Assembly: GCA_019247845.1 (NCBI GenBank)
Contig: JAFBAL010000010.1
Location: 1 to 64,000 of the forward strand
Length of the DNA: 64,000 nt
Direction: 5' to 3'
Origin: Alphaproteobacteria bacterium
GTDB taxonomy: Bacteria > Pseudomonadota > Alphaproteobacteria > Micropepsales > Micropepsaceae
In this document: one piece after another, positions 1,461 to 17,429 of the stretch
Numbering within the stretch: the stretch's first letter is position 1
How the letters are laid out: the number at the start of each line of letters is the position of its first letter
Notes under the pieces: generated by a model
Database searches by the model: none
Told to the model about the DNA's origin: nothing
What the model saw: the letters and a program-made list of their open reading frames with translations, nothing else
Translations under genes and position numbers: made by a program

Positions 1461-3023
1461 CTATATCGGCCGAGACGCTTTGCGCTTCGCCGCCTCACTC
1501 GGATTAACGACTGCACTACTTGAGCTCTGGTCAACCGCAAGGATTATATCGAGCAATTCCTTAGCCCGCTGACGAGGCGTGCCCCGACGCGGTGCACCGT
1601 TTAGCGTTTTTCGCCATTCCGCGATCTCTCGGAATGGAGATTTAAGCGTAATTACTGGCTTATTTCCCTCTGCGGAGAGGTTCGAGGTCACGTCGCCAAT
1701 GAACTCGCGCCGCTCGGGCACATTTGAAGCGATATACCCGCAGAACGCTGCATTTCCGAGTTCGAGTTTCTTGAGGGCTTTGCCTCGCGGCAGTTCACTA
1801 GCAGTAATCGCCGCAATCTGGTCGAGATAGCCTTGCTGCTCGCTCAAGAGCCCGTGCTTTCTCGCCTCGAAGGTTTCTCGATCTATCATCTGGTCGATAT
1901 AGGCGTCAGTGAGCCGGGAAAGCCTGTCTCTGCATGTCGTGAGCCTCAGATCGAGCGTAGCCCGCAGCTTACCAGCTTCCTCGTCGATATGTCGGCGCTC
2001 AACGTCCACTAAGTCCCTGAACTCCCTCAACTCCGCGTCGTCCGCGATGAGGAGCTTCATGGCCTTCTGAATGATGTCGTCCACGAACTCTTCGCGGATG
2101 CTTGTCCCCTGGCAGCCCTCGCTATGGCAGCGGTAATAGACATAGCGGCTCTTCTGCCGTTCGCCGATCAGGTGAAGTCCGCACTTCTTACACTCAATGA
2201 GACGCCGGAACGGGAAGTCATACTTGACCGACCGCAGCACGGTCTTGCCGTCAAGGATGGCCTGGACCCTATCGAACATCGCTTTGGTGACAAGCGGCGG
2301 ATGGGCGCCTTTGAAGGTTTCGCCGGTCCGCTTGAGATGGATGATCCCCATGTAGAAGGGGTTGCGCAGCATGATGGAGACGGCGTTCTTCGAGAGCGGC
2401 TTCCCGTCCTTCCCGTGGAGCCCTCGCTTGTGCATCTCCTTCCGCAGCTCTCGGAGGCTATGCCTATTCTGCGAGTACAGTTCGAAGGCGTCGCGGACCA
2501 AGGGGCCGTTCACAGGATCGATGGTCTTGGGATTGCCCTTTCCCTCGTTCCGGTAGCCGATAGGGGCGGGTAGCGGATAAACGCCCTGGTGAAGACGCCC
2601 ATAGAAGCCCTTACGAGCTTCTTGGCGATTGTTGCGGATGAAGTCCGCCGCCACGACGGCCAGCATGTCCGCAGACAGCCGCCCGCCACGGGTGCTCAGG
2701 TCTATCGGCTCATGGGCGAACTGGAAGTCAATGCCCCGGTCGTAGAGCTTGCTGAGCACGTTCCAGTCGTCGAGATTACGGGCGCTGCGGTCGATCTTGT
2801 GCATGACCACCCCGCGCGCTTCGCCTTTTTCAAGCCGGTCAAGCATGCCGGAAAATACGACGCGGCCTGCTTTAGCAGCGGTCTGAACCTCGACGAACCA
2901 GTCCACGATCTCGAAGCCGCGTTGCGTCGCGAACTTCGCGATATCGTTCTTCTGGACTTCGAGGGAGACGCCTTTTTCCTGCTTCTTATCGGAAACGCGG
3001 ATATAGCCGAAATATGGCTTCAT
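1461..3023 (-). CDS. Large serine recombinase (resolvase/invertase family)
   Basis: This 520-residue protein has an N-terminal resolvase domain with the YIRVSDKKQ motif, whose Ser11 is the expected nucleophile. A recombinase domain follows near residues 155 to 260, then a zinc beta-ribbon (CKKC then YRCHSEGC near residue 300) and a long C-terminal coiled coil. This layout is that of site-specific recombinases that integrate and excise mobile elements. The start at 3023 has no evident Shine-Dalgarno sequence, but the motif spacing from the N-terminus is normal. Its partner attachment sites were not identified. It is one of three recombinases in this island and is not next to the visible element edge. 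Confidence 0.9.
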   Translation of the reverse strand: MKPYFGYIRVSDKKQEKGVSLEVQKNDIAKFATQRGFEIVDWFVEVQTAAKAGRVVFSGMLDRLEKGEARGVVMHKIDRSARNLDDWNVLSKLYDRGIDFQFAHEPIDLSTRGGRLSADMLAVVAADFIRNNRQEARKGFYGRLHQGVYPLPAPIGYRNEGKGNPKTIDPVNGPLVRDAFELYSQNRHSLRELRKEMHKRGLHGKDGKPLSKNAVSIMLRNPFYMGIIHLKRTGETFKGAHPPLVTKAMFDRVQAILDGKTVLRSVKYDFPFRRLIECKKCGLHLIGERQKSRYVYYRCHSEGCQGTSIREEFVDDIIQKAMKLLIADDAELREFRDLVDVERRHIDEEAGKLRATLDLRLTTCRDRLSRLTDAYIDQMIDRETFEARKHGLLSEQQGYLDQIAAITASELPRGKALKKLELGNAAFCGYIASNVPERREFIGDVTSNLSAEGNKPVITLKSPFREIAEWRKTLNGAPRRGTPRQRAKELLDIILAVDQSSSSAVVNPSEAAKRKASRPI

Positions 3024-6756: not shown

Positions 6757-7677
6757 CTATTCCAATCTACGGAGCAACACATATGTGCCGATTGCTGTAA
6801 CTAAGATGGCGAGGCCCTTTTGCACGAAATCCCAACGCCGCGCTTTCTCGGGCAACAGCGCCGGAGCGATGGTGGTGAGGACCGCGCCGATCATGAGCGC
6901 GAAAAGCGCTTGGTACGAGTTCGCGAGCAGGATAACTGAGACCGGCGCAAGGAGATACGCGAACGCCATGACGATGTTAGCCGCGACATAGGCCAGCTCG
7001 TTCAAGGCGGCGAGGCCGACTATAGCGCGGGAGCAGCGACGGAGGGTATGCAAGCATGCGTCCCGATACGTGGGGATGATCAGCAGCCCGGTGCCGATCA
7101 CAGCCAGCACAAGGTGCTCCCAGAACAGAGACCGCACTACGCGCTCCTCAAGCGCGACTACCTTGAAGAGGACTGCCGCGAGCGCCCAACAGAGCGACGC
7201 GGCGAGCATGTAGAGCGCGGTGCGGGCGCGCAGCCGGAAGCGACGGGCTTCATCGAGATCGAAGGAGACGACGGACGTGCCAAGGAGGATGACGAGCATC
7301 GCGAAGAGCTGCCCGCGCGTCAGCGTCTCGCCAAGCACGAGATATCCGAGCCCGTACGCGAACACCGGGACGAGCTGGTAGAAGATGATGGCGGTCGCGA
7401 CATCCTCGGCCTGGAGCGCCTTCAGATAGAAGAGGAGCAGCAGGAAGTTCAGCACGCCGACGCCCGCGAGTGCGAGCATATGCGTGCCGCTCACCCGGAA
7501 CACCGTCGGATCGGCCGCAAAGAGGAGCGGCAGCGCGAGCGCGGAGAAGAGTGCCGAAAAGATTAGGATAACGGCCACGCTTCGCTCAGCCGCGTAGCGG
7601 TCAAGCAGCAGCTTGTCGAGGTAGTTGGTGACCGCGTAGAGGAGCGGTCCCACAAGCGCGAGAAGAAACCCGGCCAT
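6757..7677 (-). CDS. EamA/DMT-family membrane transporter
   Basis: This 306-residue protein has about ten hydrophobic segments arranged as two EamA repeats (GPLLYAVTNYLDKLLLDRY at the N-terminus, ALYMLAASLCWALAAVLFK in the middle). This is the drug/metabolite transporter fold of the inner membrane, and the substrate is unknown. Its start overlaps the previous stop codon by one base (TAATG at 7679 to 7675), so it is the last gene of a tightly coupled five-gene operon. Its place behind a DUF2156 acyltransferase-like gene suggests export of, or supply for, a lipid or amino-acid product. That link is inference. Confidence 0.8.
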   Translation of the reverse strand: MAGFLLALVGPLLYAVTNYLDKLLLDRYAAERSVAVILIFSALFSALALPLLFAADPTVFRVSGTHMLALAGVGVLNFLLLLFYLKALQAEDVATAIIFYQLVPVFAYGLGYLVLGETLTRGQLFAMLVILLGTSVVSFDLDEARRFRLRARTALYMLAASLCWALAAVLFKVVALEERVVRSLFWEHLVLAVIGTGLLIIPTYRDACLHTLRRCSRAIVGLAALNELAYVAANIVMAFAYLLAPVSVILLANSYQALFALMIGAVLTTIAPALLPEKARRWDFVQKGLAILVTAIGTYVLLRRLE

Positions 7678-8570
7678 TAAGACCGCCGCTCTACGCGATA
7701 TTTCCGCAGCGCCTCGATCGGCCGCAGCGCGAGCTTTGCGCTTCGGAGCGTTTCCTGTCCCAGGTCCTGTTGGACATTCATGCGGGTGTAGCCGCGAGCG
7801 ATGAGATCGCGTGCCGCCAAGCTGTCGAGCGCCGCATACACGCCGCGATACGCGGTGTCTGCCTTTGCAAACAGCGCATGCGCGCAGTCGCCCTCTGGAA
7901 GACTTGCGACGTGAAAGGCGACCAGCCGCCCTACGATCTTTATACCGATTGCCGCTAGGGGAAGTGCATGAGCAGCCTCGCATAAGCGTCTGTGAGCCTC
8001 AGGCTCACTCGTCTCCGGGCGCGTTTTCTTTTCGCGCCATCTCCGCCAGAGGTCTTCAATTTCCTCCCGTGTCTCGCGCGTCCGTAGATCGAGCGCGACC
8101 CGCTCCGCGCGCGGGAACGACCGCAGGAAGTGCGCGAGCTGCCGCCGCTGGGATTTCAAACACGGCTCGGCATATTCAAGGTGGCGGTCGAGCGCGCAGA
8201 CATAGTCGAGATGGTCGCGCTCCTCCTCGACCTGGAACTCATCCGGATCGAGGGCCTTGGCTGCGATCTCCGGGACAAGCCGCAGGCAGGCGTCGCAGCC
8301 GGGAGCACTGCCGGCAAGAAGCGTGCGCGCGGTCTTGTTCGCCGCGCTTGTGCCGAGGAAGGTCAGAAACGGCGTGCCGGTTTCGTAGTCGGTGAAGCGC
8401 ACGACGAGATTGCCGTAAAGCGCGGAGAGCGCCATCTCTCCCTTCACGTTCCATGACCACAGGTTCCCGAACTCGAAATCCGAATACGGCGGAAGGCGGC
8501 AGGTCTGCGCCGCGACCGCCTCTCGGTCGGCAAGTTCGAGGCTCTTGAACACCGGGTAGTCGGGGATCAT
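7677..8570 (-). CDS. DUF2156 (phosphatidylglycerol lysyltransferase C-terminal-like, GNAT-fold) protein
   Basis: This 297-residue protein resembles the cytosolic domain of MprF-like enzymes. The N-terminal pattern FKSLELADREAV, then PPYSDFEFGNLWSW, is characteristic of DUF2156. The C-terminal MNVQQDLGQETLRSAKLALRP matches the conserved QDLG-x(3)-LRxSK motif. Related enzymes move an amino acid from aminoacyl-tRNA to a lipid or other acceptor. It lacks the flippase membrane domain of MprF, and the adjacent EamA transporter could supply a membrane step. The start at 8570 is set by the four-base ATGA overlap with the porin gene. The substrate is unknown. Confidence 0.75.
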   Translation of the reverse strand: MIPDYPVFKSLELADREAVAAQTCRLPPYSDFEFGNLWSWNVKGEMALSALYGNLVVRFTDYETGTPFLTFLGTSAANKTARTLLAGSAPGCDACLRLVPEIAAKALDPDEFQVEEERDHLDYVCALDRHLEYAEPCLKSQRRQLAHFLRSFPRAERVALDLRTRETREEIEDLWRRWREKKTRPETSEPEAHRRLCEAAHALPLAAIGIKIVGRLVAFHVASLPEGDCAHALFAKADTAYRGVYAALDSLAARDLIARGYTRMNVQQDLGQETLRSAKLALRPIEALRKYRVERRS

Positions 8571-9334
8571 CGGCGATCGGGGTCGGAGCCCCAGAGCGGG
8601 ACGCGGTACGAGACCGACGCGAAAAACGCTGGTCTGCACCACGTCCTCCCGCCCTGGGTGAGAAGGCAGGCGTCTTCGTTCAGGCTTGCGCCGCCATAGC
8701 GCGCGTCGAGGGAGACTGGCCCGGAGGTCGCGGTAAGCCCGGCGTCCCAGTGCGCGTAGGGATAGCCGGAGCGGGCGGTATGGTTCCAGCCGCGGCTTCC
8801 TTGCTCCCCGAGCGTCCCGCTCGCGGAGAGCCAGTCCGTGATGCGGTACGATACGGTTCCTGCGATGTACCACGCCGGGCCGTCGCCGAAATAGCTTGGA
8901 GACCACGCCGCCGTCGCGGTCGCCGTGAAGCGTTCCCAGGTCCGGCTCGCCGAGCCGATGAACTCCAAGGAGCTGTAGCGCACGCTTCCTGGCTTCGGGC
9001 GATGATCGGGATAGGCGTAGTAGTTGGCGCTCAGGTCGAACGAGAGCCCGCGCCATTCCATGCGCCTGCCGCCATACAAGACCAGCTCGACGGACGTATC
9101 CTCATGGTCCTCGGGGTCCACGCCCGAGCCAAAGGCGCCCGCATACCAGCCGTCTGCGCCGGTCACGTCCAGCTCGCCTTGCAGCATCGGCTTTTCGTCG
9201 TTCTGGCTCACGCCCCGGAAGCGGTAGTCTGTAGCGACGGTGGCCGTTGCCGTGACAGTGTCGAGGTCGAACGCGGCGACGGGGTGTGCGGACGCCGTCA
9301 GAAGCGCATAAACGGCAACGAGGACGCGTCGCAT
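8567..9334 (-). CDS. TorF/Gcw_chp-family putative outer-membrane porin
   Basis: This 255-residue protein has an N-terminal signal peptide (MRRVLVAVYALLTASAHPVAA) followed by a beta-rich barrel. It begins with ATVATDYRFRGVSQNDEKP, the hallmark of the TorF/Gcw_chp family, and ends SVSYRVPLW. Alternating aromatic and small residues fit outer-membrane strands. A Shine-Dalgarno AGGACAGG precedes the ATG. It is the third gene of the envelope operon, with its stop overlapping the DUF2156 start. It probably forms a channel for a small substrate. Confidence 0.8.
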   Translation of the reverse strand: MRRVLVAVYALLTASAHPVAAFDLDTVTATATVATDYRFRGVSQNDEKPMLQGELDVTGADGWYAGAFGSGVDPEDHEDTSVELVLYGGRRMEWRGLSFDLSANYYAYPDHRPKPGSVRYSSLEFIGSASRTWERFTATATAAWSPSYFGDGPAWYIAGTVSYRITDWLSASGTLGEQGSRGWNHTARSGYPYAHWDAGLTATSGPVSLDARYGGASLNEDACLLTQGGRTWCRPAFFASVSYRVPLWGSDPDRR

Positions 9335-9340
9335 CCTGTC

Positions 9341-10048
9341 CTACGGCTTCCACACCGTCTGGCCGTCGAACTTCATGAGACGCCATTCGAGCGTCACGGG
9401 ATTCTGAATAAGCGCCAGCGACCACGTGAAAGTGCCGAACTTCACCGAAGGCGCGACCGCCGCAATCTGCGCGCTCGGAACGAAGGTAGCAGATACCCGG
9501 TAGCTGCGAGCCGTCGCCATGCCGCCCGAGCGGTCGTCCAGGGCCTTGAACTCGTTGATGCGCTCGATGGCGCTTACCTTGAAGTGGCCCCAATCGAAGT
9601 AGAACCAAGTTCGGCAGCCGTACCGATTGTTGCGAGCCCAGAAGCGGTATGCCTTCGCAAGAGAAGGAATCGGCACATAGAACTGGCCTTGCCGCACGAA
9701 CGCGGTGCCTTCGAGGCGCTGCAAGGCGCGCGCAGCCATCCATCGGTCGTCCTGGATGAAGTCGTGAGAGAAGATCCAGGGCTCGCACTTGGTCTTGGCC
9801 TCATCCCCCGTGTAATCCCCCCGGACAAGAGGCGTGGCGACGAAGCTCAGTTCTCGGTTGGCATCGAGATCGCTTGCGTAGATTCCTTGGGCGGACGCAA
9901 ATAGGAAGGGCTGTTCGATATCCGCAATGACGTTAGCAGCTGCCGCGTCGGGTGCAGTGTCCGCGCTCTTGTGCGCACCGTCTTGCTTTCCGCATCCCGT
10001 AATGACGCAGAGGACGACAAGCGCCGCCGTGGGAGCCGCGCCCCTCAC
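9341..10048 (-). CDS. Predicted lipoprotein of unknown function
   Basis: This 235-residue protein starts at a GTG whose last two bases overlap the upstream stop (GTGA). The N-terminus has a lipoprotein signal with lipobox VITGC, Cys19 being the predicted lipidation site. The mature part contains DKWM-free but aromatic-rich segments such as RFWARNNRYGCRTWFYF and a C-terminal LALIQNPVTLEWRLMKFDG. This gives a C-terminal beta-sheet look reminiscent of VirB8/NTF2-like folds, though that is weak. No family was recognised. It is the second gene of the envelope operon. Confidence 0.65.
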   Translation of the reverse strand: MRGAAPTAALVVLCVITGCGKQDGAHKSADTAPDAAAANVIADIEQPFLFASAQGIYASDLDANRELSFVATPLVRGDYTGDEAKTKCEPWIFSHDFIQDDRWMAARALQRLEGTAFVRQGQFYVPIPSLAKAYRFWARNNRYGCRTWFYFDWGHFKVSAIERINEFKALDDRSGGMATARSYRVSATFVPSAQIAAVAPSVKFGTFTWSLALIQNPVTLEWRLMKFDGQTVWKP

Positions 10049-10587
10049 GGCGTTACTTCCAGCCAGCTATCCCTCACATATCCGCGCCGGTCGAGCGCTG
10101 GCTGCGGATACCTCGCATCAAGGATCGGCGTCACGCCCTGACACACCCAGGATGCGGAGGTGTCGTTGGCTGCGTTCGGCACCGCTGTGTTGGGATACTG
10201 GGCGCAGTATCGGCGCAGGACAGCCGTCGGTTTGCGTACGGCTCTCGTCTTCATGCACGCGCGGCCCGTGGCGCCAAGGTAGCAGGCGTAGACGCGGCCG
10301 CCCATGCAGCGCCACACGCCGTTCTCGTCCATGCGCGGGTACTTCGCTTTGAGATCGGACATCACTTGCCCCGGCAGGTCAGGACCCTGGTATCGGGGAT
10401 CCGATACGCTTCCTTCCCCGCCCGAGTCGGCGTCGTTCACCGCGCGACAGAAGGAGAAGGGGTCATGGTACGTCGCATGAGGCCCAGCCTCCGCTCGGTT
10501 GGCAGGCAGAATTGCGGCCAGATATCCCGCTGCCAAAGTGGCAAGCAATCCCCGCAGACACGCGGTTGCGAACCCTGAGCGATCCAT
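10045..10587 (-). CDS. Secreted Cys-rich hypothetical protein
   Basis: This 180-residue protein has a signal peptide (LRGLLATLAAGYLAAILPANRAEAGP) and a mature part with several cysteines (FCRAV, WRCMGG, YACYLG, RACMK, RYCAQY, WVCQG). The even spacing suggests disulfides in the periplasm. MGGRVYACYLGATGRACMK resembles small periplasmic proteins of unknown function in alphaproteobacteria. The ATG is preceded by a GGGGG Shine-Dalgarno stretch. It is the first gene of the five-gene minus-strand operon, and its promoter region contains a 29-bp palindrome. Confidence 0.65.
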   Translation of the reverse strand: MDRSGFATACLRGLLATLAAGYLAAILPANRAEAGPHATYHDPFSFCRAVNDADSGGEGSVSDPRYQGPDLPGQVMSDLKAKYPRMDENGVWRCMGGRVYACYLGATGRACMKTRAVRKPTAVLRRYCAQYPNTAVPNAANDTSASWVCQGVTPILDARYPQPALDRRGYVRDSWLEVTP

Positions 10588-11263: not shown

Positions 11264-11328
11264 AAGGCTCCTCTTGGTTGTTCGGAGCCACCTTGGTCTA
11301 CAATTCCTGATTGACTTGGCTAAGCGAG

Positions 11329-11357
11329 TTGAAACACTATAGTCCATACTGTTTCAG
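11329..11357. repeat. 29-bp palindrome, copy 2 (TTGAAACA-N13-TGTTTCAG)
   Basis: TTGAAACA at 11329-11336 and TGTTTCA at 11350-11356 flank CTATAGTCCATAC. Arms and spacing match the copy at 10602. The central GGACTA is present in the opposite orientation (TAGTCC on the plus strand). A TATAGT -10-like hexamer for the integrase gene lies inside it on the minus strand. Confidence 0.75.
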
Positions 11358-11589
11358 TTATTGTATACCCGCGCGCGGATAGCGCGAGTGCGCGTTCACA
11401 GAATGAATTCGTCCATTGAGGCCGCGATCGAATTTACGCCCCGTGCGACTTTCTTCCAGGTCAGCGGCAAGGCTACCGGAGAACCAGGCCGGGCCCGAGG
11501 CGAATATGCGCCCACGCCTGTCTGGCCTCTTCCGTTGCGGAGATAGTCAATGAAAAGACGTCCCGGTCTTTCGGATAGAGAGGCGGAGA
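11358..11589. other. Non-coding stretch between integrase promoter and Nudix relic
   Basis: About 230 bp upstream of the Nudix relic hold no convincing gene. Short frames exist on both strands but show no family resemblance and no ribosome binding site. The sequence may be degraded 5' Nudix DNA or island scar. Confidence 0.4.
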
Positions 11590-11814
11590 TTGTGTAGCGG
11601 CGATCTCGCTTCGCGAATGCAGACGCGAGACCTGGACCCTGCCACGTTGAAGAGCACCACGTTCAGCATGGTATGGCCGCCCCGGTCCGGCGTGGTTCAG
11701 AACTTCCCGGAAGCGGATCGCGGCGGTTGGTTCGGACGAGACGCGGCGTTGCGCAAGATCGTCGCCGGTCAGCACAGAGTCGTCGATGCCTTCTTTGAGT
11801 CGTCGCCGTCATGA
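11590..11814 (+). pseudogene. C-terminal relic of a Nudix hydrolase
   Basis: The last 60 residues of this frame match the tail of small Nudix hydrolases: DLDPATLKSTTF, then MVWPPRSGVVQNFPEADR, GGWFG, and ALRKIVAGQHRVVDAF. The Nudix box (GX5EX7REUXEEXGU), normally about 60 residues upstream, is absent. The N-terminal half is therefore lost. The relic overlaps the exonuclease gene by ATGA, so the pair was once a coupled Nudix/exonuclease operon. The upstream sequence does not restore the missing half in any frame. Confidence 0.6.
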
Positions 11815-12704
11815 AGATCGCCACCTTCAACATCAACAACGTCAACAAGCGCCTTGCTAACTTGCTTGCGTGGCTTCATGCCGCCAAGCCGGACATCGTT
11901 TGCCTTCAAGAGCTGAAAGCGGAAACGCGCGCCTTCCCGGTCCGCGAGATCGAGGAGGCCGGGTACTATGCGGTCTGGCAAGGACAGCGCACCTGGAACG
12001 GCGTCGCGATTCTCTCCAAGCGGGAACCCGTGCTAATCCGTCGGGCGCTGCCGGGCGACAAGAGCGACGAGCAGGCGCGCTACATCGAAGCGGCGGTGTC
12101 GGGCATCGTCATCGCCTGCATCTATCTACCCAACGGCAACCCGCAGCCCGGTCCCAAGTTCGACTACAAGCTCGCGTGGTTCGACCGGCTGATAAAGCAC
12201 GCGAAGACCTTCAATAAGGAGAATGTCCCCGCCGTGCTCGCGGGCGACTTCAACGTGGTGCCTGATCTCGCGATAGACATCTATCCGACGCGCTCGTGGG
12301 ACAAGGACGCGCTTACGCAGCCCGAGCCACGCGCGCGCTTCGGCAAGCTCCTGGGTGATGGATGGCTGGATAGTTTGCGGGCGAAGCACCCCAATGAGCG
12401 CATCTACACCTATTGGGACTACAAGAGGCAGCGCTGGGACCGAAACGGCGGATTGAGACTCGACCATCTGCTCTTGAACGAGCCGCTGCATCGACGGCTT
12501 ACGAGGGCTGGGGTTGACAAAGAAGTGCGCGGACAGGAAGGCGCGAGCGACCATGCGCCGACGTGGGTCGAACTTAAAACGCCGCGCGGTCAGAATTCCT
12601 CCATAGCAGCCCATCAGCAATGCGACCTTCAGTGCATTGAAAGGACACCAGCCATCCAAATGGCGGGGGGCGAAGGGCGGTCTCATTCGACGCACTCGTC
12701 ATAA
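11811..12704 (+). CDS. xth: Exodeoxyribonuclease III
   Basis: This 297-residue protein is an AP endonuclease/3'-5' exonuclease that acts in base excision repair. It has MKIATFNINNVNKR (metal-binding Asn), LQELK (catalytic Glu34), VACIYLPNG, AGDFNVVP (Asp-Phe-Asn), RLDHLLLN and the final GASDHAPTWVEL with catalytic His. Family members end close to that point, near residue 258. The remaining 35 or so residues (from RGQNSSIAAHQQ) look like readthrough into unrelated DNA. It overlaps the Nudix relic by four bases and precedes the AT-rich cassette. Confidence 0.9.
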   Translation: MKIATFNINNVNKRLANLLAWLHAAKPDIVCLQELKAETRAFPVREIEEAGYYAVWQGQRTWNGVAILSKREPVLIRRALPGDKSDEQARYIEAAVSGIVIACIYLPNGNPQPGPKFDYKLAWFDRLIKHAKTFNKENVPAVLAGDFNVVPDLAIDIYPTRSWDKDALTQPEPRARFGKLLGDGWLDSLRAKHPNERIYTYWDYKRQRWDRNGGLRLDHLLLNEPLHRRLTRAGVDKEVRGQEGASDHAPTWVELKTPRGQNSSIAAHQQCDLQCIERTPAIQMAGGEGRSHSTHSS

Positions 12705-12814
12705 CCGGCTGATGGCCGTCCAGATCGCTCAATTCTCGAATAGGTTGTACAGGTTTGGGGAATTGGCTAATCTGCGCAGCTCTAGGTCATTCGTGGTAAG
12801 GATTGCTCGCAGCG

Positions 12815-12839
12815 ACTATTATGCGCATTCGATAATAGT
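12815..12839. promoter_or_regulatory. 25-bp palindrome ACTATTAT-N9-ATAATAGT before the AT-rich cassette
   Basis: ACTATTAT at 12815-12822 and ATAATAGT at 12832-12839 are perfect reverse complements. The palindrome ends 18 bp before the ATG at 12858, just upstream of the GGGAG ribosome binding site, where a repressor or an RNA hairpin could block expression. The rest of the 153-bp gap from 12705 is AT-rich and likely carries the promoter. Confidence 0.6.
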
Positions 12840-12857
12840 GCTATTCGGGAGAAGCCT

Positions 12858-13823
12858 ATGGATCATCGAAGCGTACAGTCCGAACGCGACGCTCTATGTA
12901 ACAGCTTTGCACCTTTAATTGCTCAGTCCTATGCCGATCTTCAATCCCTATCCGGTCTTGATTCTTTTTTTGTGGAAGCAGGTCTGGACGCCATACGAAT
13001 TAAGAAGACACGTCATGGAGGACTGCTATTTGGCGAAGTTTTTCCACATCTAGCAACTGCTGGGCTATCACTATCTGACCATGATAGAAGGCGCTTGGCG
13101 GCTGCATGGATCGCACTATACAGCTATGTCTGCATTGTAGACGCCGAGCTGGATGTCGCCCACCATCTAGGTGTCAAGGCCTCCTTGGCATCAAGCAATT
13201 TACTAGCTTGGGGCGTCTCAACTCTTACGCGCTACACAGTGGGCACGCCGTTTGAAAGCGTAATGCAGGACAACATTAACAGAGCTTTTTTGGGGCAATA
13301 TCGAGACCTGCTTCTGCGGCCAATCGCAAACGCAGACAGGAGCGAAAGCGACATAGACAAGAACCGCGCAATTGTCGCTACAGTGGCGGCGTATTGCGCA
13401 GCTTCAGGTCACAATGACCTGCAACTTGTCGCGGCAACCGAGCAGCTGCTAGGTCCTTTCCAAGCACTCGATGATCTTCAGGACGTCTGGCAGGATTATC
13501 TTGAGGGTAATATCACGCGTTTCGTGCAAATCGCAAAAGCGGAACTTCGTCACAACGAGTTGGATTCTGCTTCAAAAGGTTACTACCGCGCTATTTTCAG
13601 AAGCCCCCATTTTTTGGTTATCTTACATGATATGGACCGCGCCATATCGAACGCAATCGGATGCCTAGATCCCGCACGAGATAGTGCGCTTCTTCGATAC
13701 TTTGGCTTTATGAGTAAAGGCGTTGCGGAGGTTCGTGAAGCATCGTCACGGCTGCACGCCGGTGAAGCAATTAGCGAACCCGATCTTGAGTTGCTTGTCG
13801 CAAAAATAGCCAATGCCAGCTAA
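12858..13823 (+). CDS. Class 1 isoprenoid-synthase-like enzyme
   Basis: This 321-residue, all-helical protein has two aspartate-rich motifs placed as in trans-prenyltransferases and terpene synthases. The first is CIVDAELDVAHH near residue 95. The second is LDDLQDVWQDYLEGN near residue 210, followed by a T-R segment matching GN-x-T. Between them is NRAFLGQYRDLL. Such enzymes ionise allylic diphosphates using Mg2+ held by Asp residues. The first motif is VDAELD rather than DDxxD, so the substrate is uncertain. A GGGAGAAG Shine-Dalgarno fixes the start. Base composition is visibly AT-richer than the rest of the island, pointing to separate transfer. Confidence 0.65.
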   Translation: MDHRSVQSERDALCNSFAPLIAQSYADLQSLSGLDSFFVEAGLDAIRIKKTRHGGLLFGEVFPHLATAGLSLSDHDRRRLAAAWIALYSYVCIVDAELDVAHHLGVKASLASSNLLAWGVSTLTRYTVGTPFESVMQDNINRAFLGQYRDLLLRPIANADRSESDIDKNRAIVATVAAYCAASGHNDLQLVAATEQLLGPFQALDDLQDVWQDYLEGNITRFVQIAKAELRHNELDSASKGYYRAIFRSPHFLVILHDMDRAISNAIGCLDPARDSALLRYFGFMSKGVAEVREASSRLHAGEAISEPDLELLVAKIANAS

Positions 13824-13834
13824 GGGGATGAGGC

Positions 13835-14413
13835 TTGGGAATTTCTGAGAACAGCAATCGGTGGGCATTTAGCGCGCTGCAAGCTATGGCGAACCCGTCA
13901 AGTATCGTCGCCGTTGCTGCACCAACTATCCTGTCGATAGTAGAACTCTTCTTTCTCATCAACGACTCAGGCCCGTACAATAAGGCACTGATTGACCCGA
14001 ATGTCTGCGCTCTCCTCGAGCACCGCACGCAGTTGTATACCTTGGTGGTGGCATATTTCTTTTTCACGCTCCAGTTTTCAAATATGGTGCATCGTCAGAT
14101 CGTCACCCGAAACGGCAGTTGGGAGTGGAAACGTGCAAAAGATCACAGCCACCTTGGTCACTGTACGGCATTGTTTGCCGCGCTAACGATATCCTTGGGA
14201 TATCTGTTTCTTTCAGGACGGATGATGACGACCACGGGGTTGGATGCTTATCGAAGCCTAAAGAGTTGCACCCATCATCAGATTTATGCCGTCGAACTTC
14301 CGCCGTTGGACGCTTGGGTCACAATTTGCCGCTTCCTTGTAGCTATAATAGCTTTTAGTGTCACATTGCTCGATCGCCGACATGTTTCAAAAAGCGCCGC
14401 TGGGGCCGTATAG
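13835..14413 (+). CDS. Hypothetical membrane protein, four predicted helices (TTG start)
   Basis: This 192-residue protein has hydrophobic segments near residues 18 to 40, 65 to 85, 105 to 125 and 160 to 180. The cytosolic-looking patches MVHRQIVTRNGSWEWKRAKDHSH and LLDRRHVSK separate them. The start is a TTG 12 bp after the isoprenoid gene, behind AAGGGGATGAGG. An ATG at 13828 in another frame reads only six codons. No family was recognised. Close spacing and shared AT-rich composition tie it to the genes on both sides. Confidence 0.6.
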   Translation: MGISENSNRWAFSALQAMANPSSIVAVAAPTILSIVELFFLINDSGPYNKALIDPNVCALLEHRTQLYTLVVAYFFFTLQFSNMVHRQIVTRNGSWEWKRAKDHSHLGHCTALFAALTISLGYLFLSGRMMTTTGLDAYRSLKSCTHHQIYAVELPPLDAWVTICRFLVAIIAFSVTLLDRRHVSKSAAGAV

Positions 14414-15062
14414 GCATCAGCTGATTTTGGGCGTAGTGCACCTGGGCGTCGGCGTTCTTATGAGCGCGGTGCTCTGCTTGTTCAATTTCGACTTCATTGC
14501 ATTCTTTAGACACGCAAACCTAGCATTGGGCCTGTCGGTTTTGGTTTTCGGGTTCGTAAAAGGTACATATGGAATTGGCTCGGTTTTCCCCGGGCAGACG
14601 CTGGTTCTGATCGCCATCATAGGACTGTCTTGCAACATGCAGGCATTGGGTCTGCCTTTGTTGCTTGTATGGTTAGGCGTTATGGCAGGGCTGATACTCA
14701 GCTATTCCATCGGCTGGGCAACACATTCGTTTCGCCAAAAGGGAGAGGCGGGGGCACGCGATGGCTTTAACTGGAAGGAAGTGGTGTTCGTCGTAACCCC
14801 GACAGCGGCAAGCACATATTTTTTCAATATGGGATATTGGAGGCGCTCCATTCTAGTTCGACTATTATGGTATGGCGTTGCTGGCGGACTATTGCTCGTC
14901 ACCTTGTCCTGCATGATGTGTATCGTGAAGAGTATCCTCGCCCCCCGAGTGGAAACACTATCCACGCTCTATTCTTTGGGCTTGGCCGCCTACGGCTTAC
15001 TCACAATTGTTTACGTCATTTGGCGATCTCAGAAGCAGGTCCCGGACGATAGAGCCGTATAA
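14382..15062 (+). CDS. DedA/VTT-like membrane protein
   Basis: This 226-residue multi-pass protein overlaps the previous gene by 32 bp. YGIGSVFPGQTLVLIAIIGL resembles the PGE-x-LL-x-AG motif of DedA/VTT proteins, with Gln for Glu. VTPTAASTYFFNMGYWRRSILVRLLWYG resembles the second half, where a Pro and an Arg follow the cytoplasmic loop. DedA-family proteins include undecaprenyl-phosphate translocases. That role would fit the nearby isoprenoid enzyme, but homology is remote and this is inference. A GTG at 14358 is an alternative start. Confidence 0.5.
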   Translation: MFQKAPLGPYRHQLILGVVHLGVGVLMSAVLCLFNFDFIAFFRHANLALGLSVLVFGFVKGTYGIGSVFPGQTLVLIAIIGLSCNMQALGLPLLLVWLGVMAGLILSYSIGWATHSFRQKGEAGARDGFNWKEVVFVVTPTAASTYFFNMGYWRRSILVRLLWYGVAGGLLLVTLSCMMCIVKSILAPRVETLSTLYSLGLAAYGLLTIVYVIWRSQKQVPDDRAV

Positions 15063-15240
15063 GTAGTGGCTTAGAAGCGCTGTGAGTTTGCGGGCGTGGT
15101 CGCCGCCACGATGCCGACGCAACGCGCCAGCGATCCACAACGCGATGAAAATAGGCGCCTGTATTGCGCGAAATTTGCTTTGAATAACGGCATAGGTGCC
15201 CATAGAATCTCTCGGCAAATATTCCGCAATTGAGAATTCC
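15063..15240. other. Gap between AT-rich cassette and second serine recombinase
   Basis: The 178 bp contain no recognisable gene. AT-rich stretches near 15170 to 15230 (ATTTGCTTTGAATAACGG, AAATATTCCGCAATTG) probably hold the recombinase promoter. Confidence 0.4.
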
Positions 15241-16875
15241 ATGAAATCCAAACCGGCCATTGCTTCGAGAGCAACCAATAAGCAGGTTGGCATCTGGATC
15301 AGAGTATCTACAGAAGACCAAGCGCAGGGCGATAGCCCCGCGCACCACGAGGCGCGCGCCCGACTGTACGCCCAGGCGAAAGGTTGGGATGTGCGCGAGG
15401 TGTATAACCTCGCGGGTGTGAGCGGCAAATCTGTTGCCGAGCATCCCGAAGCCAAGCGCATGCTCGCGGATATCACGTCGGGCCGCATCAGCGGGCTCAT
15501 CTTTTCAAAGCTTGCGCGCCTCGCCCGCAACACCCGCGAACTGCTCGACTTCTCCGATATGTTCCAGGCGCACGGCGCGGACCTCGTATCGCTTGAGGAA
15601 TCCATCGACACGAGTTCGCCTGCCGGGCGCATGTTCTATACGATGATCGCCGCCCTCTCGCAGTGGGAGCGGGAAGAGATCGCCGCCCGTGTGCGGGCGT
15701 CCGTCCCGATCCGCGCGAAGCTGGGGAAGCCGCTCTCCGGTCAACTGCCGTATGGGTACATGCGCAAGGACGGCAAGGTGGTCCCGAACCCGGACGAGGC
15801 GCCCGTCAGGAAGCTTATGTACGAGCTATTCGCGGAGACCCGCCGCAAGAAGGCTGTAGCGCGGCTCCTGAACGAGCGGGGGTACAAGTCGCCGGGCGGC
15901 AAAGCGTGGACCTACACGACCGTCAACCGGCTCCTGCGCGATCCTACGGCCAAGGGGCAGTACCGCCAGAACTACACCACTACAGGCGCCAAGCCCGGCT
16001 CCATCGAGTACAAGCCCGAAAGCGAATGGGTGGTGCACGAGGTCGAGCCCATCGTCTCGGTCGAGCTATGGGAGAGCTGCAACGCCATCCTCGAAGGCCA
16101 ACGGACGAGCCGGAAGGCGCCGGGCCGGTCCGCCCTCCACCTCTTCTCCGGCCTCACCTACTGCGCCGACTGCGACCAGAAAATGTATGTCCCGTCCCGG
16201 CAGCCGTATGCGTACCGCTGCTGGAAGTGCAACGTCCGCGTCCCGGCAGATGATCTCGAAACCATCTACCACGCCCAGCTCAAGGGCTTCCTGTTCTCGG
16301 ACCAGGACATCGCGGCCCAGATGGACGCCCTGGACGGCGTGATCTCCGCCAAGGAGGACGAGGTACGGCACCTGGAACGCGAGCGCGGGGCCGTCAAACG
16401 GGAAATGGACAAGGCATATCAGCTGTACCTCGCGGACGAGATTTCTGCCTCCGGCTTCGGGGAACGAAACCGGCCGCTCGAAGCCCGCCTTGCCAAGATC
16501 GACGAAGAGCTTCCCGCCGCTCAGGCGGCCATCGACGTACTGCGCATCAACCGCCTGTCCCGCGACCACATCCTGGCCGAAGCCCGGAGCCTCCATACCC
16601 GCTGGCCCGAGCTTCCGAGAGACCAGAAGCGCCAGATCGTCGAGACCATCACTGACCGCATCACCATCGGGAGAGAGGACATAGACATCCTCCTCCATTA
16701 CGTCCCGACAGTAGCTGTCGGGACGAACGGGCCGGACGGGCAAGCCGTCCAGCCCGGAAAACCAAGGGAAAGCGCCTCCGGCGCAAATGCGCTCAACAAG
16801 GCAACGCAGGAATTGGGCTTGGTTCGCGGAAAGCTCGGCGGTACGCGCACGATCTCGAAAGGCGGCGCGGCGTGA
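15241..16875 (+). CDS. Large serine recombinase, probable integrase of the element
   Basis: This 544-residue protein has a resolvase domain with IRVSTEDQ (Ser23), SGLIFSKLARLARNT and the SSPAGRMFYTMIAALSQWERE helix. The recombinase domain is near residues 165 to 275, then a zinc ribbon (CADC and YRCWKC near residues 305 and 325) and a coiled coil. It lies at the visible element edge, as integrases do. The last 15 to 20 codons run into the antisense strand of the interrupted glycosyltransferase gene, so the C-terminal tail is donated by the target DNA. The frame is open back to 15196 but ATG 15241 fits the family start better. Confidence 0.9.
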   Translation: MKSKPAIASRATNKQVGIWIRVSTEDQAQGDSPAHHEARARLYAQAKGWDVREVYNLAGVSGKSVAEHPEAKRMLADITSGRISGLIFSKLARLARNTRELLDFSDMFQAHGADLVSLEESIDTSSPAGRMFYTMIAALSQWEREEIAARVRASVPIRAKLGKPLSGQLPYGYMRKDGKVVPNPDEAPVRKLMYELFAETRRKKAVARLLNERGYKSPGGKAWTYTTVNRLLRDPTAKGQYRQNYTTTGAKPGSIEYKPESEWVVHEVEPIVSVELWESCNAILEGQRTSRKAPGRSALHLFSGLTYCADCDQKMYVPSRQPYAYRCWKCNVRVPADDLETIYHAQLKGFLFSDQDIAAQMDALDGVISAKEDEVRHLERERGAVKREMDKAYQLYLADEISASGFGERNRPLEARLAKIDEELPAAQAAIDVLRINRLSRDHILAEARSLHTRWPELPRDQKRQIVETITDRITIGREDIDILLHYVPTVAVGTNGPDGQAVQPGKPRESASGANALNKATQELGLVRGKLGGTRTISKGGAA

Positions 16876-17429
16876 CGTTCGGCGGCCGCGACGGTCTCGG
16901 CATCGTCGGCCTCGACCACCAGCAGGACCTGGAGACGCTCCTTCGGGTAATCGAGCGCGGCGAGCGCAGCCACCAGTCCCGGCACGACGGCCGCCTCGCG
17001 ATAGAGCGGCACCAGGACGGTATAGTCCGGCAGGTCGTCGCCTTGCGTGAGGGAAGCGGGCGCGATCGTCTCGGCAACACGCGGCCGCACGCCGAACCAG
17101 GCGAGGAAGGCGCGGAACAGCACGCTCGCCAGGAACACTGTCGACATCGCGTCCGCGAAAGCCGACATGGTCGCGCGCGGCCACAGGCACGATGCGGCGG
17201 CGAACCCTGCCGCCGCGAGCGCGAGCCCCGCCACCTGTCCGCGCGTGACGACCGTCTGCGCCGACAGCGCGGGGAACCGGCGCGCAAGGCCGTGGATCGC
17301 CTCGTCGGTGAGACGCTCGGGATCGAGGTGCCCCTGCCCGAGACGCGCGTCATCGTCGCCGCGCCCAAGGCGCGCGCCATCGCTTTCGCGCGGACGCCGC
17401 GCGCCATCACTCCCGTGGAAGGATGTCAT
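16818..17429 (-). pseudogene. Family 2 glycosyltransferase, truncated by element insertion
   Basis: About 200 authentic residues remain. There is an N-terminal cytosolic region, two hydrophobic helices (VAGLALAAAGFAAASCLW, then STVFLASVLFRAFLAWF), then the GT-A start LPDYTVLVPLYREAAVVPGLVAALAALDYP, LLVVEADD and VPPSFPRTKP. Family members continue with K-[AG]-x-N-x-[AG]-L and a DxD motif. Here the reading frame continues as unrelated codons to 16698. The catalytic half is missing and presumably lies beyond the other end of the element. Polysaccharide or glycolipid synthesis by this enzyme is therefore lost. Confidence 0.85.

Follow-up and report, generated by a model that had tools for sequence, protein, structure and literature searches.

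Organisation of the locus

The window (the whole stretch of DNA analysed, 64,000 nucleotides) is the first 64 kb of contig C31 in a genome of 3.9 Mb, which its gene content suggests is that of an alphaproteobacterium. It contains three closely spaced plus-strand genes, P1–P3, which lie between a nuclease-family gene and the integrase of a mobile element (Table 1). The ORF calls agree with a preliminary description of this DNA on the number, strand, and order of the genes. The TTG start of P2 stands 11 bp past the end of P1, rather than the 12 bp given previously, and the reported 32-bp overlap of P2 with P3 holds if P3 starts at the ATG at 14382 and becomes 56 bp if it starts at the GTG at 14358. 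The longest stop-free stretches between 12705 and 15195 measure 345, 236, and 193 codons, and a frame of at least 321 codons occurred in none of 300 dinucleotide shuffles of this region. P1–P3 are real genes with an operon-like layout. As had been noted, the cassette is richer in AT than both flanks (G+C of 0.50 for P1, 0.50 for P2, and 0.52 for P3, compared to 0.61 for the nuclease gene, 0.63 for the recombinase, and 0.67 further downstream); the nuclease-family gene is probably cargo separate from P1–P3. The palindrome previously described before the first start is present 18 bp from P1 and is a possible candidate for an operator or promoter element, though a weak feature, as an equally good inverted repeat arises in 21 of 1,000 shuffles (2.1%) of the 153-bp stretch 5′ of P1.

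Table 1. Position and character of the features at the cassette locus.
Feature	Position	Strand	Description
Exo_endo_phos gene	11811–12704	+	exonuclease/endonuclease/phosphatase family; PF03372, E 1.2e-27
Variable cargo slot	11348–15168	.	tyrosine-integrase gene to large serine recombinase; G013 similarity absent 11265–15168
Inverted repeat, 8 bp	12815–12839	.	ACTATTAT-9-ATAATAGT; arms 12815–12822 and 12832–12839; 5′ of P1
P1	12858–13823	+	ORF, 321 aa; predicted soluble, all-helical, class I isoprenoid-synthase-like; DAELD 95–99, FQALDDLQDVWQDYLEGNIT 201–220
P2	13835–14413	+	ORF, 192 aa; TTG start; hydrophobic, 3–4 predicted membrane helices; no family match
P3	14358–15062	+	ORF, 234 aa from GTG, 226 aa from ATG 14382; VTT/DedA-like, without the DedA acidic and basic functional residues
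Large serine recombinase	15196–16875	+	element integrase; PF00239/PF07508; PHROG 95 integrase, E 7e-114
Right attachment junction	16805–16822, about 16812/16813	.	in glycosyltransferase gene; ACCAAGCCCAA / TTCC

A variable cargo slot beside the integrase

A related element was found in a genome of the same genus (G013). Its DNA matches the window (87% identity, blastn) from position 15169, just past P3 and 27 bp 5′ of the recombinase frame, and the match extends across the recombinase as far as the junction in the glycosyltransferase gene. Upstream, DNA similarity is scattered and the genes of the two elements correspond in order (a second serine recombinase, an RuvC-sized gene, an ArdC-type gene, and a tyrosine integrase). 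From the tyrosine integrase to the large recombinase, the two elements share no sequence. The slot in G013 is occupied by a BpsA_C-domain gene (weak mad2 match), an IrrE-type peptidase (weak capP match), an HTH gene, and a transporter-like gene. The related element occupies the same site with other genes as its cargo; the comparison thus shows a variable slot of which P1–P3 are one filling, and supports the proposal that they are cargo of an integrative element. Like the slots of known integrative elements with large serine recombinases, this one has the recombinase at one end, a fixed attachment site, and swapped neighbouring cargo; it differs in that the P1–P3 cargo has no match in any collection searched.

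The attachment site was located by comparison with intact glycosyltransferase genes. The fragment in the window (16698–17429) is aligned by the intact genes of relatives only to residue 207–208 of 243 (tblastn), compared to a match running to the last residue for the same fragment in G013. At the junction, the window and G013 both have ACCAAGCCCAA followed by TTCC, where most intact genes have GG instead; the element side is common to these two, and intact relatives share the gene side alone. The remaining half of the interrupted gene was absent from the assembly search, which returned only a 29% identical paralogue. In genome G100, a more distant recombinase (59% identity) lies at the same place in the same gene, with an FGE-sulfatase-domain gene 5′ of it. 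More generally, a large serine recombinase family of the genus enters a conserved ACCAAGCCCAA-like stretch of the glycosyltransferase gene, with differing cargo in two related elements (L148 and L137).

Homology searches

The trio had not been recognised as a described system, and the database searches bear this out. For P1–P3, no Pfam or NCBIfam family was returned (for P1, at E-values up to 10), the only PADLOC match was a weak one of P3 to a 4TM effector (E 0.019), matches to PHROGs were at chance level, and sequence searches of solved structures returned nothing. No homologue was found among plasmids and phages (tblastn; the single match, to P2 at E 3, is at chance). Searches of about 750 whole genomes, sampling species (100 relatives, 289 genomes from the class, 398 from the phylum, and 96 from the order), likewise gave none, and neither did scans for sequence patterns in viral contigs and, in two rounds, in the genomes of 85,000 species. 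Some of these scans used alignments (A1–A3) of P1 with script-made synthetic motif-variant rows, which are not homologues and only widened the patterns. The four best weak matches to P1 in the genomes were unrelated genes or antisense-looking frames. Because a pattern scan picks up only proteins that have a short peptide in common, and because the genomes searched are a sample of species, distant relatives of P1–P3 may exist. Structure prediction without homologues (AlphaFold) gave unusable models for P1 (all helix, but pLDDT 47 and pTM 0.34) and P3 (pLDDT 52), and Foldseek and VIA-align are uninformative on models of such low confidence.

Resemblance of P1 to class I isoprenoid synthases

P1 has two Asp-rich motifs, V94-D95-A-E-L-D99 and D205-D206-L-Q-D209, which stand in the order, at the separation (about 100–140 residues), and in the sequence context that mark class I enzymes, although the first is of the DxxxD rather than the DDxxD type and is missing the second Asp. 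The resemblance was scored with three ungapped blocks (one for the helix that leads into the first Asp motif, one for the second Asp motif itself, and one for the stretch that follows the second motif) built from alphaproteobacterial polyprenyl synthases (n = 30 for two blocks, n = 13 for the third). The best placement in P1 fell on D95 and D205 (RRLAAAWIALYSYVCIVDAELDV; LLGPFQALDDLQDV; DVWQDYLEGNITRFVQI) with a score of 58.3, 5.5 s.d. above plain shuffles (mean, 21.2; sd, 6.8; maximum, 56.0; 0 of 5,000 reach P1) and beyond all local shuffles (0 of 2,000; maximum, 51.9) and background ORFs (0 of 294; maximum, 42.3), with a true significance below these raw counts because the blocks were chosen after the motifs had been seen, adjacent blocks share two P1 residues, and simpler tests were weak. 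A two-block test run earlier led to the same conclusion. Squalene synthases, which are true distant relatives, score up to 63.7 on the same blocks, so that P1 is level with them; the score is 89 for a divergent polyprenyl synthase encoded in the same genome.

The simpler tests comprised single-motif PSSM and softer two-motif scores, which were matched by about 0.04 of shuffles with the squalene-synthase set and 0.2 with the polyprenyl set, and pairwise BLAST of P1 to synthases, which was within chance (39 of 500 shuffles). There was no signal for P1 with hhalign against polyprenyl and squalene synthase profiles (with the polyprenyl profile, the positive control was recovered) or with hmmsearch --max, and P1 was not listed in a PF00494 search of its own genome at E 10. 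The preliminary description of P1 as class 1 isoprenoid-synthase-like is thus supported by the block test, but not by family libraries, hhalign, or structure prediction, and P1 appears isoprenoid-synthase-like in sequence while belonging to no recognised family.

With the trans-polyprenyl diphosphate synthases (PF00348), P1 shares an LAAA-x11-D helix before the first Asp motif, an FQxxDDxxD second motif, and D-x-x-E-G-x-(I/V)-T after it; it differs in having DAELD in place of DDxxD, no RR following, a loop past the second motif that is about 11 residues shorter, and no Pfam or profile match. With the squalene/phytoene synthases (PF00494), P1 shares a DxxxD-type first motif in an (I/L)Y(A/S)(F/Y)-like helix, best placed on D95, and the D-4-D-4-G spacing of the second motif, but has DDLQD where that family has N-I-x-R-D. 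Read by eye, P1 combines a DxxxD-type first motif with a second motif that is polyprenyl-synthase-like and is followed by a short spacing like that of squalene synthases. The same genome also encodes, distinct from P1, a divergent 332-codon polyprenyl-synthase-like gene (L082; G000:C17:21044–21496, minus strand).

Resemblance of P3 to VTT/DedA proteins

P3 has PGQ at residues 78–80. In two genomes of the same genus, the protein that it matched best, though weakly, was a VTT-PAP2 fusion; the two fusions are orthologous and align with P3 in register (39% identity over 85 aa; FPGQTLVL/FPGETIVL and GVMAGLILSYSIG/GAIAGDGISYWLG). Two matches of this level among the 96 order genomes searched are about the chance expectation, and what gives them weight is that both are VTT proteins and that the alignment coincides with the motif. 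In pairwise comparison, P3 scored above all 1,000 plain and 1,000 local shuffles. In a two-block VTT test (the first reentrant helix and the following helix), the score of P3 was reached by 0 of 5,000 plain and 2 of 3,000 local shuffles; of 867 background ORFs, one scored higher, and that one is VTT-like in its motifs. A search with P3 did not return PF09335 at E-values up to 10, the VTT HMM gave no signal, and hhalign of P3 was only slightly above shuffles. The shared features are the FPGQ-TLV/FPGE-TIV reentrant tip and the GxxAGxxxSYxxG helix; the predicted helix order would fit reentrant-TM-reentrant-TM-TM at low confidence. Overall, the earlier assignment of P3 as DedA/VTT-like holds up on the block test, the pairwise score, and the in-register alignment.

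In the DedA protein YghB (COG0586), an acidic pair (E39, D51) and a basic pair (R130, R136) are described as essential for undecaprenyl-phosphate flippase activity (PMC10127716). The corresponding acidic positions in P3 are K68 and Q80 in the alignment to the VTT-PAP2 protein, and the arginine positions at the second tip are V and A when the TP of P3 is hand-anchored on that of its relatives, the program alignment being gapped there. P3 lacks both pairs, which weakens the previously raised link to undecaprenyl phosphate. Other VTT subfamilies are likewise devoid of these acidic and basic residues, so a different lipid is possible for P3.

Proposed function and alternatives

The best reading, to which we give a probability of about 40%, is that the trio forms a mobile cassette for making or handling a prenyl lipid at the membrane. 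From the observed genes and their matches we infer a fold, catalysis, substrate, partnership, and trait as follows. P1, as a highly divergent class I isoprenoid synthase-like protein, would bind a prenyl diphosphate via Mg2+ between D95/D99 and D205/D206/D209; P3 would be a VTT-type membrane protein shifting lipid between leaflets, with P2 as its small membrane partner. Jointly, the three proteins would synthesise or modify a prenyl lipid and deliver it to the envelope, and the host would gain a surface or membrane trait. The tight gene spacing and overlap, the variable slot, and the block matches of P1 and P3 favour this reading; set against it are the lack of any family or profile match, usable model, or homologue, and a first P1 motif without its second Asp. 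If true, mobile elements bring their own isoprenoid-lipid enzyme plus a lipid mover, a combination not found in the literature searched, the class I synthase and VTT families are both extended, and mobile cargo is tied to envelope lipids. P1 and P3 are in addition good test cases for proteins missed by current family libraries. A more specific version, of doubtful standing, would have an undescribed mobile-element membrane system in which a new class I isoprenoid synthase branch acts together with a VTT transporter that has lost the undecaprenyl-phosphate residues and so carries a different, perhaps uncharged, prenyl lipid, altering the envelope and possibly blocking phages.

Similarly doubtful is that the three are unrelated orphan genes of the mobile element, with resemblances to prenyl synthases and DedA that are due to chance or mark inactive remnants. 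The missing homologues, library matches, and confident fold are what would be expected of such genes, as are the two-motif and pairwise tests of P1, weak or within chance, but the multi-block scores of P1 and P3 each beat all 5,000 plain shuffles and the frames are intact and overlapping. A defence or abortive-infection role, in which P1 would sense or bind a prenyl diphosphate (e.g., undecaprenyl diphosphate) and P2 and P3 would act as membrane effectors that disturb the envelope upon phage infection, is a possibility drawn from location rather than from direct support, and we regard it as unlikely. The slot adjoins the integrase, a soluble protein is encoded beside two membrane proteins, and the G013 slot holds an ImmA/IrrE-type peptidase (capP-like) and a methyltransferase-type gene (mad2-like); against this, the G013 matches are weak, PADLOC offers the trio only the weak 4TM match, and the literature searched held no paper tying isoprenoid synthases to anti-phage defence. 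Class I enzymes often make terpene or prenyl products, and the three-block evidence for P1 would also fit a small terpenoid-metabolite cassette. That P1 makes such a product and P2 and P3 handle or export it is nonetheless quite improbable, as tailoring enzymes are absent beside the trio and characterised VTT proteins act on lipids, not as metabolite exporters (PMC10127716).

Other genes of the related elements

In the window, the ArdC-type gene seems to be separated from the tyrosine integrase by a second variable slot (6757–10587; compare L148:5559–7954), which holds an EamA-like transporter-type frame (identified by eye), a phosphatidylglycerol lysyltransferase-C-like gene, and a Gcw_chp outer-membrane gene. 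Further upstream, on the minus strand, are the second serine recombinase (1461–3023), to which a gene in G013 corresponds, and a TrwB/TraD-like coupling ATPase (103–1311) that also matches PADLOC mad8 (E 3.9e-16). In G013, the BpsA_C gene, an unassigned 222-codon gene, and the IrrE-type peptidase (L148:8919–12547) could be a defence module. In G100, the FGE-sulfatase-domain protein that forms the cargo next to the related recombinase (L137:6383–7804, minus strand) has no assignment for its N-terminal half.
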